From NCBI RefSeq assembly GCF_021646685.1, contig NZ_JAKJHW010000005.1, positions 62,001 through 126,000 on the forward strand: a DNA stretch of 64,000 bases, given 5' to 3'. Position numbers and translations under genes: made by a program. Shown in pieces: positions 43,829-56,983 of this stretch (position 1 is its first letter; the number at the start of each line of letters is the position of its first letter). The stretch comes from Pseudalkalibacillus salsuginis (GTDB lineage: Bacteria; Bacillota; Bacilli; Bacillales; Fictibacillaceae). Under the pieces are notes generated by a model. It did no database searches. It was given only the letters and a program-made list of their open reading frames with translations, and was not told the origin of the DNA.

Positions 43829-44015
43829 TATGGTTTGAGGTGAATGCCAGGCTCCATCGCCCACCCACTTGGATCACTTCAGACCTCCTGGAGGCGGTCG
43901 ACACATTGAATTAGATCGAAGGGTTAACCCACGCAGAACCGAACTTTGTTTGGTTCGAGCCTCCTCGTCGGACTTCCAGTGACCTTCGTGGCTGCCCCGG
44001 GCGATTCCGCTTTTC
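43829..44015 (+). repeat. Repeat family A, copy 4
   Basis: Full copy between the convergent hemF and DUF418 genes: GCTCCATCGCCCACCCACTT, GAACCGAACTTTGTTTGGTTC, CCTCCTCGTCGGACTTCCAG, GCGATTCCGCTTTTC. Confidence 0.87.
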
Positions 44016-44020
44016 TAACC

Positions 44021-45401: not shown

Positions 45402-45430
45402 TTGGATTTCACCGCGGGATGGTTTATAAT
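45402..45430 (+). promoter_or_regulatory. Strong SigA promoter of the ABC-F leader
   Basis: TTGGAT (45402-45407), 17-base spacer, TATAAT (45425-45430). Predicted start at about 45437, in front of AGAGGAGGT. Confidence 0.75.
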
Positions 45431-45467
45431 AAATATACAAATAAGAGGAGGTATCGATACTAAAATC

Positions 45468-45500
45468 ATGAAGTCCCTTAACATTTTTCGCGTAGCTTAA
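45468..45500 (+). CDS. 10-codon upstream ORF in the ABC-F leader
   Basis: ATG-AAG-TCC... encodes MKSLNIFRVA and stops at TAA. AGGAGGT lies 15 bases before the ATG, further than ideal. Its last codons form the 5' arm and loop of hairpin P3, so a ribosome stalled here would open P3, as in drug-sensing leaders of erm and ABC-F genes. Expression is inferred only. Confidence 0.45.
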   Translation: MKSLNIFRVA

Positions 45501-45624
45501 TACGAAAAATGGCTCTGCCTGTAAACAGAGTATAGGGATAAGTGTGCCTACATTTAGATATCGTTTTCTTCATGATCGGATTTTGCTGGTCTTTTTTCAG
45601 CATCATGATCCCATTTATCTGGTT

Positions 45625-45649
45625 CACAGGCAGCGGCCTGTGTTTTTTT
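45625..45649 (+). terminator. Attenuator terminator before the ABC-F gene
   Basis: CACAGGC, loop AGCG, GCCTGTG, then seven T: a textbook intrinsic terminator about 210 bases after the promoter and 380 bases before the ABC-F start. Confidence 0.85.
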
Positions 45650-45723
45650 ATGGAAAGACTTTGTTATTTGGTAAAGGTTAATATTGATCTTTTTAAAAAA
45701 TTGCAGGAAATTCGCGACACTCT

Positions 45724-45757
45724 GTGGGAAAAGCGAGCCAGGCGAGACCCCGCAGCT
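45724..45757 (-). repeat. Repeat family C fragment 2
   Basis: Plus strand GTGGGAAAAGCGAGCC and GGCGAGACCCCGCA; its complement aligns with 27386-27416. It directly precedes repeat A copy 5. Confidence 0.5.
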
Positions 45758-45763
45758 TGGATG

Positions 45764-45943
45764 TAGAAGTGATGTCCAGCTCAGCGACCAGCCACTTGGA
45801 TCACTTCAAACTTCCTGAGGCGGTCGACACATTGATTTACATCTTATGTGTGAGCCCACGCAGAACCGAACTTTGTTTGGTTCGAGCCTCCTCGTCTGTT
45901 TTCCAGTGACCTACGTAACTCAGCGGGTCGCTTCTGCTTTTCT
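45764..45943 (+). repeat. Repeat family A, copy 5
   Basis: Divergent full copy: TGTCCAGCTCAGCGACCAGC, CGGTCGACACATTGATTTAC, GAACCGAACTTTGTTTGGTTC, CTCCTCGTCTG, CTTCTGCTTTTC. It lies in the untranslated leader of the ABC-F gene. Confidence 0.8.
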
Positions 45944-46029
45944 TCAGCCCACGGAAAGGGAGTGAATTTTGCAAAGATCAACAATGTATTATAACAAAGC
46001 CAATGGAAAAAAGTGCTGGAGGGATCGGA

Positions 46030-47859
46030 ATGTTAGTTTTGAAGGCTGAAAATATTGCGGTTGAACGTGATGGAAAGCAAATATTCGAAGGTGCAGCCAT
46101 AGAAATCAATGATGGTGACCATATTGCGTTAATTGGACGGAATGGAGTAGGGAAAACGACTCTCATTAACTGTCTTTTAGGGAAAGAAAAAGTGACCAGT
46201 GGAACGATCAACTACTCGATGAAAATTGGAGAATGGGGAATCGTCACTCAAGAATCTTTACAGGATAATCTATTGACGACTAGAGAATTTGTGGAAAGTG
46301 AAACTTTGGATCTGTTCAACGTAAAACGACGATTGGAAAGGTATGAACGGTTGATACAAGATAATTATGAGGATATGGATGTCCTCTCTAAGTATAATAA
46401 AGCGCTCGACACTTTCATGGAATTAGGAGGATATGAGTGGGAGGTTTCGGTCGAAAAGTCTTTACTCAAGCTGGGTCTTAAAAAGGATACCTGGAATCAG
46501 CCCATTGCGAGCTTGAGTGGTGGTCAAAAAACACGTGCAAAACTTGCAAAGGCCATGCAACGGAATCCAAAGGCTCTTGTTCTGGATGAACCGACCAATC
46601 ATCTGGATGCAGTGACGATGCAGTGGCTTGCAGGATGGCTACAATCGTTTAAAGGAGCTATATTATTCATATCCCATGAACGTGCCTTCATTGATCAAGT
46701 AGCGACAATCACCTATGAGCTTACTCCCGAGGGAACGAAAAAATATCATGGAGGCTATTCACAATACCTTAAGCAGGTTGAACATGAACGGAAGACGCTC
46801 GAGGCCCAATATCACAAACAACAGGCAGAAAAAAGAAAGCTCTTGGAAGCTGTTACGCAATACAAGCAGTGGTTTCAGAAATCACACAGTGCTGCAAGTG
46901 AACGGGATCCTTTTGCAAAGAAAAAAGCAAACAAGAATATGACACGGTTCAAGGCAAAGGAAGCAGCATTGGAAAGACTAGAAAATAACCAGGTAGAGAA
47001 ACCGAAGGAGGCGCCGAAAATCAATGTTGAATTGGAAGGTGGCAGGTTCGACAGTAAAATACTGCTTAGATTTGAAAATGCCGCTTTTCAATATGATCAA
47101 GATGAAAAGCTTTTCAGCTCGTTATCCTTTACGATCGACCGGGGGGACAGAATCGCCGTGATCGGTCAAAATGGAACTGGGAAATCGACCTTGCTCAAGC
47201 TGATCACCGGACATCTTCTGCCTGTATCAGGCGATGTCATCCATCACCCTCAATTGAAAATAGGATACTTTATGCAGGAGTTGGAAGGGCTTGATCTGCA
47301 ACAGTCGGTTCTTGAACAAATATTAGAGTTGCCGCAAATGACTCAAGAAGATGCACGAACCATCCTGGCATGCTTTTTATTTAAAGGTGATCAAGTATTT
47401 AAAAAAGTGAAGGATCTAAGTATGGGGGAGAAATGCAGAGTAGCCTTTGTGAAATTGTATTTTTCAGAAGCGAATCTACTTGTGCTTGACGAGCCCACCA
47501 ACTATCTTGATATAGAGACAAGAGAAAGAATCGAGGATGCATTGATTGTTTATCCTGGATCTGTCGTTACTGTCTCCCACGATCCTTATATGCTTGAGAA
47601 AGTCGCAAACCGTGTCTTTTCATTGGACAATGGGTTCTATGAATACAAAGGTACTTATATGGAATGGAAAAAACATGTCCATTTATCAAAAGACGAACAA
47701 AGTATCAATAATGAAATAGAGCGGTTGGAGTTACAATTATCGAATTTGATAGCCCAGGAGCTCGAGCCAGGTGATGAGATTGGTACGCTCGCGCTACAAA
47801 AACAAATAACAGACTTGAAAAAACAGATTTATCAATTGGAAGCTGAAAAAAAGAGCTAA
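46030..47859 (+). CDS. ABC-F ATPase, probable ribosome-protection type
   Basis: 609 residues from ATG 46030, GGAGGG 6 bases upstream; no transmembrane segments. Two ABC domains: Walker A GRNGVGKTTL (about 36-45) and GQNGTGKSTL (about 384-393), signatures LSGGQKTRAKLAKAM and LSMGEKCRVAFVKLYF, Walker B ALVLDEPTNHLD and LLVLDEPTNYLD. The linker (about 250-345), with a basic P-site-tRNA interaction motif region, is long (KQWFQKSHSAASER, KKKANKNMTRFKAKEAALERL), as in Vga/VmlR-type antibiotic-resistance ABC-Fs, which dislodge lincosamides, streptogramins and pleuromutilins. A housekeeping ABC-F is possible, but the attenuator-like leader favours resistance. Confidence 0.88.
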   Translation: MLVLKAENIAVERDGKQIFEGAAIEINDGDHIALIGRNGVGKTTLINCLLGKEKVTSGTINYSMKIGEWGIVTQESLQDNLLTTREFVESETLDLFNVKRRLERYERLIQDNYEDMDVLSKYNKALDTFMELGGYEWEVSVEKSLLKLGLKKDTWNQPIASLSGGQKTRAKLAKAMQRNPKALVLDEPTNHLDAVTMQWLAGWLQSFKGAILFISHERAFIDQVATITYELTPEGTKKYHGGYSQYLKQVEHERKTLEAQYHKQQAEKRKLLEAVTQYKQWFQKSHSAASERDPFAKKKANKNMTRFKAKEAALERLENNQVEKPKEAPKINVELEGGRFDSKILLRFENAAFQYDQDEKLFSSLSFTIDRGDRIAVIGQNGTGKSTLLKLITGHLLPVSGDVIHHPQLKIGYFMQELEGLDLQQSVLEQILELPQMTQEDARTILACFLFKGDQVFKKVKDLSMGEKCRVAFVKLYFSEANLLVLDEPTNYLDIETRERIEDALIVYPGSVVTVSHDPYMLEKVANRVFSLDNGFYEYKGTYMEWKKHVHLSKDEQSINNEIERLELQLSNLIAQELEPGDEIGTLALQKQITDLKKQIYQLEAEKKS

Positions 47860-47902: not shown

Positions 47903-48085
47903 GAAAATTTATTTGGAGTGAAGTAATGTCCAGTTCTATCGCCTAACCACTTGGATCACTTTGCGGCGGTCGACACATTGATTTAGACCGAAGGGTTTTC
48001 CCAGGCAGAACGAGCTTTGTTTGGTTCGAGCCTCCTCGTCAGGCTACCAGTGACCTTCGTGGCTGAACAGGGCGATTCCACTTTT
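47903..48085 (+). repeat. Repeat family A, copy 6
   Basis: Nearly complete, with about 12 bases missing after GGATCACTT. TTTGTTTGGTTCGAGCCTCC and GCGATTCCACTTTT are intact. It lies between the convergent ABC-F and kinase genes. Confidence 0.82.
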
Positions 48086-56799: not shown

Positions 56800-56983
56800 A
56801 TAAAATTTTTGTTTCGATGAAGTGATGTCCAGCTCTACCGCCCAACCACTTGGATCACTCCAGTCCTCCTGCGGCGGTGGACACATTGATTTAGGCCGAA
56901 GTGTTTACCCACGCAGAACCGAACTTTGTTTGGTTCGAGCCTCCTCGTCTGACTTCCAGTGACCTTCGTGGTTGACCAGGGCG
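56800..56983 (+). repeat. Repeat family A, copy 8
   Basis: Nearly full copy, cut at the GGGCG of its tail: TGTCCAGCTCTACCGCCCAA, GAACCGAACTTTGTTTGGTTC, CCTCCTCGTCTGACTTCCAG. Lies in a convergent gap, followed by a hairpin with AAGGGCTG/CAGCCCTT at about 56995-57024. Confidence 0.85.

Follow-up and report, generated by a model that had tools for sequence, protein, structure and literature searches.

What controls the ABC-F gene at positions 46030-47859 of a 64,000-nucleotide (nt) stretch of the Pseudalkalibacillus salsuginis genome (contig NZ_JAKJHW010000005.1, positions 62,001 to 126,000; hereafter the window, whose coordinates are used throughout and whose features lie on the + strand unless stated otherwise)? 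The gene is preceded by a structured leader, for which an earlier note had proposed the logic of antibiotic-sensing attenuators, with a mutually exclusive terminator and antiterminator; this proposal is supported by folding and by an alignment-free helix test. We consider it likely that the leader is a ribosome-sensing transcription attenuator, in which a drug-held ribosome on the AUG of a short upstream open reading frame (uORF) switches the ABC-F gene on. In broader terms, it is very probably a real, conserved and functional drug-sensing attenuator of known logic, and the drugs that it senses are most likely those that arrest ribosomes at initiation, as for the vmlR leader. The parts of the leader, their conservation and covariation, the exclusivity of the two pairings and the position of the AUG can be regarded as established by sequence and comparison.

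The leader begins behind a SigA-type promoter (TTGGAT at 45402-45407, 17 nt, TATAAT at 45425-45430), which could be read as first described and has 9 of 12 consensus positions. Its -35 box matches at only 3 of 6, and for this reason a strict consensus promoter scan listed nothing at 45402-45430; the -10 box is TATAAT in six of the seven genus relatives and TACAAT in the seventh. Transcription is predicted from the promoter position to start at about 45437. A Shine-Dalgarno (SD) sequence, AGGAGG (45446-45451), lies 16 nt ahead of the AUG of the 10-codon uORF MKSLNIFRVA (45468-45500, with ATG at 45468 and TAA at 45498-45500), the same uORF that had been read before. The leader has four helices. 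The outer P0 (5' strand GGTATC at 45450-45455 with an inner extension TAAA at 45461-45464; 3' strand GATATC at 45557-45562 with inner TTTA at 45553-45556) and the 5-bp P1 (GTCCC at 45473-45477, GGGAT at 45535-45539), both of which the earlier note had missed, enclose two hairpins that it had described as P3 and P4. These are P2 here (45482-45490/45503-45511, 9 bp, with a 12-nt loop that holds the uORF stop codon) and P3 (CTCTG/CAGAG, 45513-45517/45526-45530).

The predicted intrinsic terminator was also found. This element, T2 (CACAGGC-AGCG-GCCTGTG followed by T7; 45625-45649, hairpin 45625-45642), folds with a z of -3.5. The putative antiterminator CTGCCTGT (45515-45522), which lies within the P3 5' strand and loop, is complementary to ACAGGCAG (45626-45633) in the terminator 5' arm at eight of eight positions, and the 11 of 12 pairs originally counted over a longer stretch were reproduced. 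The leader as a whole (45436-45648) folds at -58.7 kcal/mol (z -3.1, with 1 of 200 shuffles equally good) and its core has a z of -3.3. A weak terminator-like hairpin followed by T6 (45574-45591), detected by pattern scan only, may correspond in position to the proximal terminator, T1, of other members of the RNA family described below.

From these parts we infer the identity of the drug, the position of the ribosome and the switch itself. Without drug, P0, P1, P2 and P3 would fold as one closed element, CUGCCUGU would be held in the P3 hairpin, T2 would form, and transcription would end about 210 nt from its start. A drug of the lincosamide, pleuromutilin or streptogramin A type, the types countered by related ARE ABC-F proteins, would hold a ribosome on the uORF AUG, where it would cover the 5' strands of P0 and P1 and open the element. 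The freed CUGCCUGU would then pair with ACAGGCAG of the terminator 5' arm, T2 would be blocked, and the ABC-F gene would be transcribed. The earlier note had the stalled ribosome first opening the 9-bp hairpin near the end of the uORF; this is less likely than blockage of P0 and P1 from the AUG because the uORF tail is not conserved (two relatives have MKS-stop and one a 1-nt deletion).

The proposed switch was modeled by equilibrium folding with a 32-nt ribosome footprint. For the window leader, the probability of the antiterminator is 0.08 in the free RNA and 1.0 with the footprint on the AUG. It remains at 0.80-1.0 within 9 nt of that position, is 0.54-0.59 at +15 to +27 and is 0 from +33. 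Among 17 leaders of Sal-like ABC-F genes that have T2, a footprint on the AUG raises the antiterminator probability by more than 0.1 in 11 and lowers that of T2 in 14. The position was scanned in 13 leaders chosen from these 17 (L057, L049, L096 and L105 were omitted, three of which form no antiterminator), and the mean probability was 0.80-0.92 at -9 to +9, 0.54-0.71 out to -27 and +27, and at most 0.10 from +33.

The leader is conserved across the genus. A DNA search of 120 genomes, including the source genome, recovered it in all seven other same-genus genomes at 79-95% identity over the aligned parts, in each case upstream of an orthologous ABC-F gene. Near-constant parts are AAGGAGGTATC or a close variant, CATG, the P2 3' strand, CTCTG..TGT..CAGAG, GGATAAG and the terminator. 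All eight genus leaders retain the uORF AUG, and conservation of the uORF is limited to the ATG and the first codons; the encoded peptides are MKSLNIFRVA (three leaders), MKSLYIFRVA, MDSLNIFHVA, MKSLTFFA, in which a 1-nt deletion shifts the frame after codon 4, and MKS-stop (two leaders). Where the uORF tail varies, the helices are retained by different bases. Short pieces of the leader were detected in nine more genomes outside the genus, and at least three of these (in G043, G102 and G060) proved to lie within or beside leaders of the RNA family; the piece in G043 belongs to a leader with the uORF MTASMRLRFHALNR ahead of a macrolide 2'-phosphotransferase gene. Of 16 ABC-F homologues, 14 are preceded by a leader match with an E-value no higher than 0.1.

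Covariation of the stems in related leaders, which had been named as a check on the prediction, was found by two routes. In a MAFFT alignment of 20 ABC-F leaders that was not fitted to structure (A5), 9 of 19 pairs in P1, P2 and P3 show double-sided changes, a number reached by none of 500 shuffles. The covariation score is 0.179 (0.120 in shuffles, with 0 of 500 as high), and slid versions score at most 0.106; on a weaker measure, the number of further pair types, 10 of 500 shuffles equal the real value. Because MAFFT misplaces the P0 3' strand, P0 was judged by an alignment-free swap test and not by column counts. In this test the two arms of each of 93 non-redundant members were compared with arms exchanged between members in 2000 permutations, with arms cut at model-alignment positions for tests and controls alike. 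Own arms pair at -13.4 kcal/mol for P0 and -8.9 for P2, and swapped arms at -7.3 and -5.0, respectively (0 of 2000 permutations in both cases). For the pairing of P3 with T2, which could be compared in the 43 members with a recognised T2, the outcome was likewise 0 of 2000, and six control segment pairs gave no signal (178 to 1715 of 2000). The signal persists within gene classes, at 6 of 2000 or fewer for P0 in six of seven classes (84 in RlmA, with four members) and at 1 of 2000 or fewer for P2 in five of seven (Msr 37, RlmA 176). Thus P0 rests on the swap test, P1 on the structure-independent counts, and P2 and P3 on both. In leaders with an Arg-X-Arg uORF, the P0 3' strand may have T1 as a partner, with z ranging from about 0 to -4.

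How widely is this structure used? With an E-value limit of 0.01, a covariance model built from the eight genus ABC-F leaders (R1) matched 68 of 298 genomes, in 36 of the 112 genera, counting the source genome and the seven training genomes, and gave a single match in the source genome. Built from genus ABC-F leaders alone, it recovers leaders of erm, mph, mef, msr, rlmA and hflX genes. Rebuilding the model from 79 matches gave R2, which had matches in 68 of 299 class genomes (the source genome included) and in 7 of 199 genomes of the phylum, four of these outside the class. On the window, which is in its training set, R2 scores 103.5 bits (E 1.7e-22), and the next match in the 64 kb scores 19.6 bits.

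The model searches yielded 156 distinct sites, after same-site duplicates had been dropped (L076=L047, L101=L049, L175=L205, L177=L222, L150=L088), and 148 were examined, eight of them R1 training leaders. Outside the 148 stand L048, L050 and L052, found via the ABC-F protein, and L128 and L134-L143, found by DNA similarity (L134-L143 on plasmids). To class the downstream genes, we clustered them and scanned representatives with NCBIfam; several scores, for Mph, Mef, Lmr(B) and RlmA, fall short of the curated cut-offs, so that the names denote a kind and not an allele. They comprise Msr-type ABC-F (29), Sal-like ABC-F (22, including the 8 training leaders), Mph (21), Erm (20), HflX (17), Mef (14), RlmA (10), Lmr(B)-like efflux (5) and an SDR oxidoreductase (1). 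Of the nine other sites, three are followed by a related gene or part of one (RlmA at a greater distance in L089, a remnant of ABC-F in L117, a fragment of Msr in L144); L071 and L097 are near contig ends, and L100 has no open reading frame of the size sought. In total, a resistance-type gene follows 142 of the 148 leaders, or 134 of 140 without the training leaders, each count being one lower if the SDR gene, whose role is unknown, is excluded. The remaining three sites (L070, L072 and L216) precede genes that are not known for resistance, identified by eye as those of an osmoprotectant-type binding protein, a sugar ABC ATPase and an MFS transporter.

Rfam 15 yielded no match above the gathering threshold in the window, and none of the seven matches from an E-value search reached the gathering score. 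Across 20 family loci only TPP and Bacillaceae-1 were matched, neither of them at the leader. The description of the leader as belonging to no known class therefore stands as far as Rfam is concerned; it does not extend to the scaffold, which is common with the ermD leader and perhaps with uORFC-6-1.

The position of the uORF relative to P1 differs between gene classes in a regular way. We measured how far the first base of the AUG lies from the P1 'CC' by column of the alignment fitted to the model, in 147 of the 163 rows aligned (those dropped were 14 that lack GGAGG and two that lack a usable start or column; L048, L050, L052, L128 and L134-L143 are included). These alignment-column counts replace first searches for the P1 helix, in which the offsets of Arg-X-Arg were scattered owing to the two-part nature of P1. 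In all 25 Sal-like leaders the AUG lies 7-11 nt ahead of the 'CC', whereas a distance of 6-12 nt occurs in only 3 of 122 leaders of other classes, whose median is 24; leaders within a class are kin, and start codons with a motif-bearing frame were preferred by the script in all classes alike. An early [RK]X[RK] motif is present in 111 of those 122 uORFs, and neither this motif nor Arg-Leu-Arg is found in any of the 25 Sal-like leaders, the window included. The X codon of Arg-X-Arg is 6-12 nt away from the 'CC' in 99 of the 111 uORFs, and exactly 8 nt away in 56; the other 12 fall outside this stall-position rule.

In the Arg-Leu-Arg stall the middle residue occupies the P site. For Arg-Tyr-Arg of tlrB, the stalled ribosome is likewise described as having the middle residue in its P site (PMC6851288). 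Thus the codon that would be expected in the P site, be it the AUG or the X codon, has the same place in both kinds of leader. For PLSA-type ABC-F genes, ribosomes are proposed to stall on the short uORFs directly after initiation and with little dependence on context (PMC10201436), which fits the placement of the AUG in Sal-like leaders. We lean slightly towards the view that a single RNA scaffold has spread among eight or more kinds of resistance gene, with the sensor exchanged and the stall position kept, so that the drug-frozen codon lies about 6-12 nt before the same helix. If this is true, the leader would be a general ribosome-stall detector whose specificity is the codon at a fixed place, and the drug class could be read from sequence, an AUG at that place indicating drugs that block initiation and the X of Arg-X-Arg indicating macrolides.

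Other explanations have to be weighed against a ribosome held on the AUG. A macrolide or other drug could arrest elongation at a specific peptide within MKSLNIFRVA, as at Arg-Leu-Arg of ErmD-type leaders. The [RK]X[RK] motif is common in the measured members outside the Sal-like class, the identical peptide occurs in three of the eight genus leaders, and the fold model still switches with a ribosome up to +27. However, the motif is absent from all Sal-like leaders, and the stems persist in the two leaders truncated to MKS and in the third that is shifted after codon 4, so we regard a peptide-specific stall as unlikely. We give still less credence to a general sensor of slow or failing translation, responding to amino-acid shortage or ribosome defects and not to a drug. 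Induction of vmlR by ribosome assembly defects as well as by drugs (PMC9226507) is a precedent for it, and the model flips with the ribosome parked at many places, but the uORF has no run of codons for one amino acid and nearly all family leaders outside the training set (134 of 140) precede resistance-type genes. Conserved loops and a compact multi-branch fold would also suit a ligand-binding riboswitch for which translation of the uORF is not needed; with the AUG in eight of eight genus leaders and at a constant place in 25 of 25 Sal-like ones, this is highly improbable.

Several observations weigh against a drug-held ribosome on the AUG as the complete account. In A5, a slide by -1 ties on two of five measures (nine double-change pairs, 21 further types), with no tie on covariation score or percentage paired. 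T2 was recognised within 330 nt in just 43 of the 93 non-redundant members, two of the 16 ABC-F homologues (L053 and L054) have no leader match at E 0.1, and in L048, L049, L096 and L117 the pairing of P3 with T2 is weak and P0/P1 3' sequence pairs with the terminator instead. The 16-nt SD-AUG spacing of the window is long, and spacings of 14-19 nt (GGAGG end to AUG), long for Bacillus, occur in all 25 Sal-like leaders. The folds are at equilibrium and not co-transcriptional. Among the six Sal-like leaders in which the footprint did not raise the antiterminator by more than 0.1, L057 and L058, both from the genus, already favour the antiterminator in the free RNA, and the other four do not form it at all. 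The switch is also broad: a ribosome anywhere from -27 to +27 raises the antiterminator probability to 0.54-0.92 in the 13 Sal-like leaders, and 24 Arg-X-Arg leaders have a flat profile of 0.67-0.81 from -27 to +21. Given these profiles, the fold model does not single out a stall codon; as modeled, the fold would account for switching by a ribosome on the uORF and for the lack of switching by one past it, but not for the constant codon position.

A sub-group of ABC-F leaders (L048, L049, L096, L105 and L117) has an altered P3. The terminator arm matches P0/P1 3' sequence in four of these five, which suggests a shift in the position of the antiterminator. L117 retains the helices, has AAG and no ATG at the uORF start position in A5, and precedes an ABC-F gene that is seemingly broken or partial (63 aa of similarity).

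The gene that the window leader would control encodes a Sal-like protein that exceeds the cut-off of the ARE ABC-F model NF000355 (492.3 bits, cut-off 380) and does not reach that of the NCBIfam Sal family NF000169 (448.8 bits, cut-off 725). Its best solved-structure match is 7p48, which we take to be Sal(B), and it probably functions in ribosome protection. The probable gene start is 46030, where a corresponding start stands behind GGAGG in all eight genus loci; it replaces an earlier assignment to 46003. A copy of a genome-wide dispersed repeat was expected after the terminator and is present at 45766-45962 (strand not given), between T2 and the gene. The distance from terminator to gene is 405 nt in the window, 350 and 262 nt in one relative each and 53-72 nt in five, and the repeat looks like an insertion. 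It lengthens the 5' untranslated region of the window gene, and one close relative has a similar distance. Further copies of this intergenic repeat occur in the window at 43855-44016 and 56819-56969 and, by eye, at about 47920-48070, and there are dozens in the genome (50 further match rows; 40 of 295 candidates scored).

Family leaders are also carried by plasmids. BLAST with two of them identified, among others, leaders accompanied by Mef(F)-Msr(G) (Macrococcoides canis and Lysinibacillus), by an RNA methyltransferase plus Msr and by an Mph (both Priestia), and by mphN (Exiguobacterium). At three sites (L138, L139 and L202) a leader stands ahead of an SDR oxidoreductase gene, on plasmids of Acinetobacter variabilis (with IS26 nearby) and Latilactobacillus curvatus and in one further genome; this may be an undescribed gene for ribosome-drug resistance or inactivation. 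A record labelled Stenotrophomonas rhizophila (CP031730.1, L140) contains a leader and an msr(G)-like gene with 85.6% identity, as in a Lysinibacillus fusiformis plasmid, and is possibly mislabelled or mixed.

Inducible resistance leaders have so far been described singly (ermK, vmlR, hflXr). The present family is known in print piecemeal, from ermK and perhaps from uORFC-6-1 before hflX (PMC8632094) and from rli80. We found no open-licence paper that, by title or abstract, unites these leaders as one RNA family, and their joining, together with a near-constant stall position with exchanged sensors, appears to be new. If scaffold and fixed stall position are shared, the leader alone would suffice to predict which class of drug induces many of the uncharacterised resistance genes of Bacilli. 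The analysis also provides a searchable model for an RNA family that was not recognised by any Rfam 15 model in these searches.

Among named systems, the ermD leader has the same scaffold. On Bacillus licheniformis plasmid pBL141-1, BLAST found a leader 91% identical to the query before an RGI-predicted ErmD of 501 nt, and R2, which was not trained there, scores it at 99.7 bits (E 6e-21). The ermD sensor is Arg-Leu-Arg about seven codons in; the window uORF has no Arg-Leu-Arg and has its AUG at that place. The window leader thus has the ermD scaffold and not the ErmD-type sensor. The ermK leader, with a peptide near-identical to that of ermD, is close kin by peptide only; it is reported to have two terminators and to act by transcription attenuation (PMC4335068). 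A shared peptide alone yields no model matches, as indicated by leaders with a peptide of the MTASMRLR/K type: the streptococcal mef(A)/Tn1207.1 attenuator (MTASMRLR) has no R2 match up to E 10 (L232, L233), the staphylococcal msr(A) leader reaches at best 18.2 bits (E 0.14, L234), and neither was accepted as a member. The Bacillus subtilis tlrB uORF, given as MIIQFIRYR (PMC6851288), is unlike the peptides of the family RlmA leaders.

Two further systems can be compared by description. uORFC-6-1 is described as a covarying structure with an internal Arg-Leu-Arg uORF and 51 representatives, mainly before hflX in Bacillales, and the text of the paper does not contain 'ABC-F' (PMC8632094). Leaders of hflX occur in both sets (17 of 148 here), and the scaffold is perhaps common to the two. 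The rli80-hflXr leader of Listeria monocytogenes, an experimentally tested attenuator with a 14-aa Arg-Leu-Arg open reading frame (PMC6310831), has the same attenuator logic as proposed for the window.

In sensing, the likeness is to vmlR of B. subtilis, where the leader also precedes an ABC-F gene and has a very short uORF (MIN) with its AUG in a loop between two stems. VmlR-like proteins occur in 30 of 299 genomes of the class, and R2 gave a weak leader match at 11 of the 12 best vmlR loci (E 3e-5 to 0.034; none at L188). The leaders read there have a lower stem, an AUG (MIN, MIH, MDN or MNN) in a loop and an upper stem ending in GGATTAG. They lack P3, which the window leader has, and their antiterminator, as read from orthologue leaders, is apparently the P1 3' strand, whereas that of the window is in P3. 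SD-AUG spacing is about 14 nt in vmlR orthologues and 16 nt in the window. Kinship of vmlR with the family is likely but unproven, and it is the closest functional precedent: its anti-antiterminator, antiterminator and terminator logic has been tested experimentally, and its uORF start, SL-1 and terminator are reported to behave as the present model requires (PMC9226507). The window AUG, placed between P0 and P1 with an offset of 7 to the P1 'CC', has the vmlR-type placement for an initiation stall.

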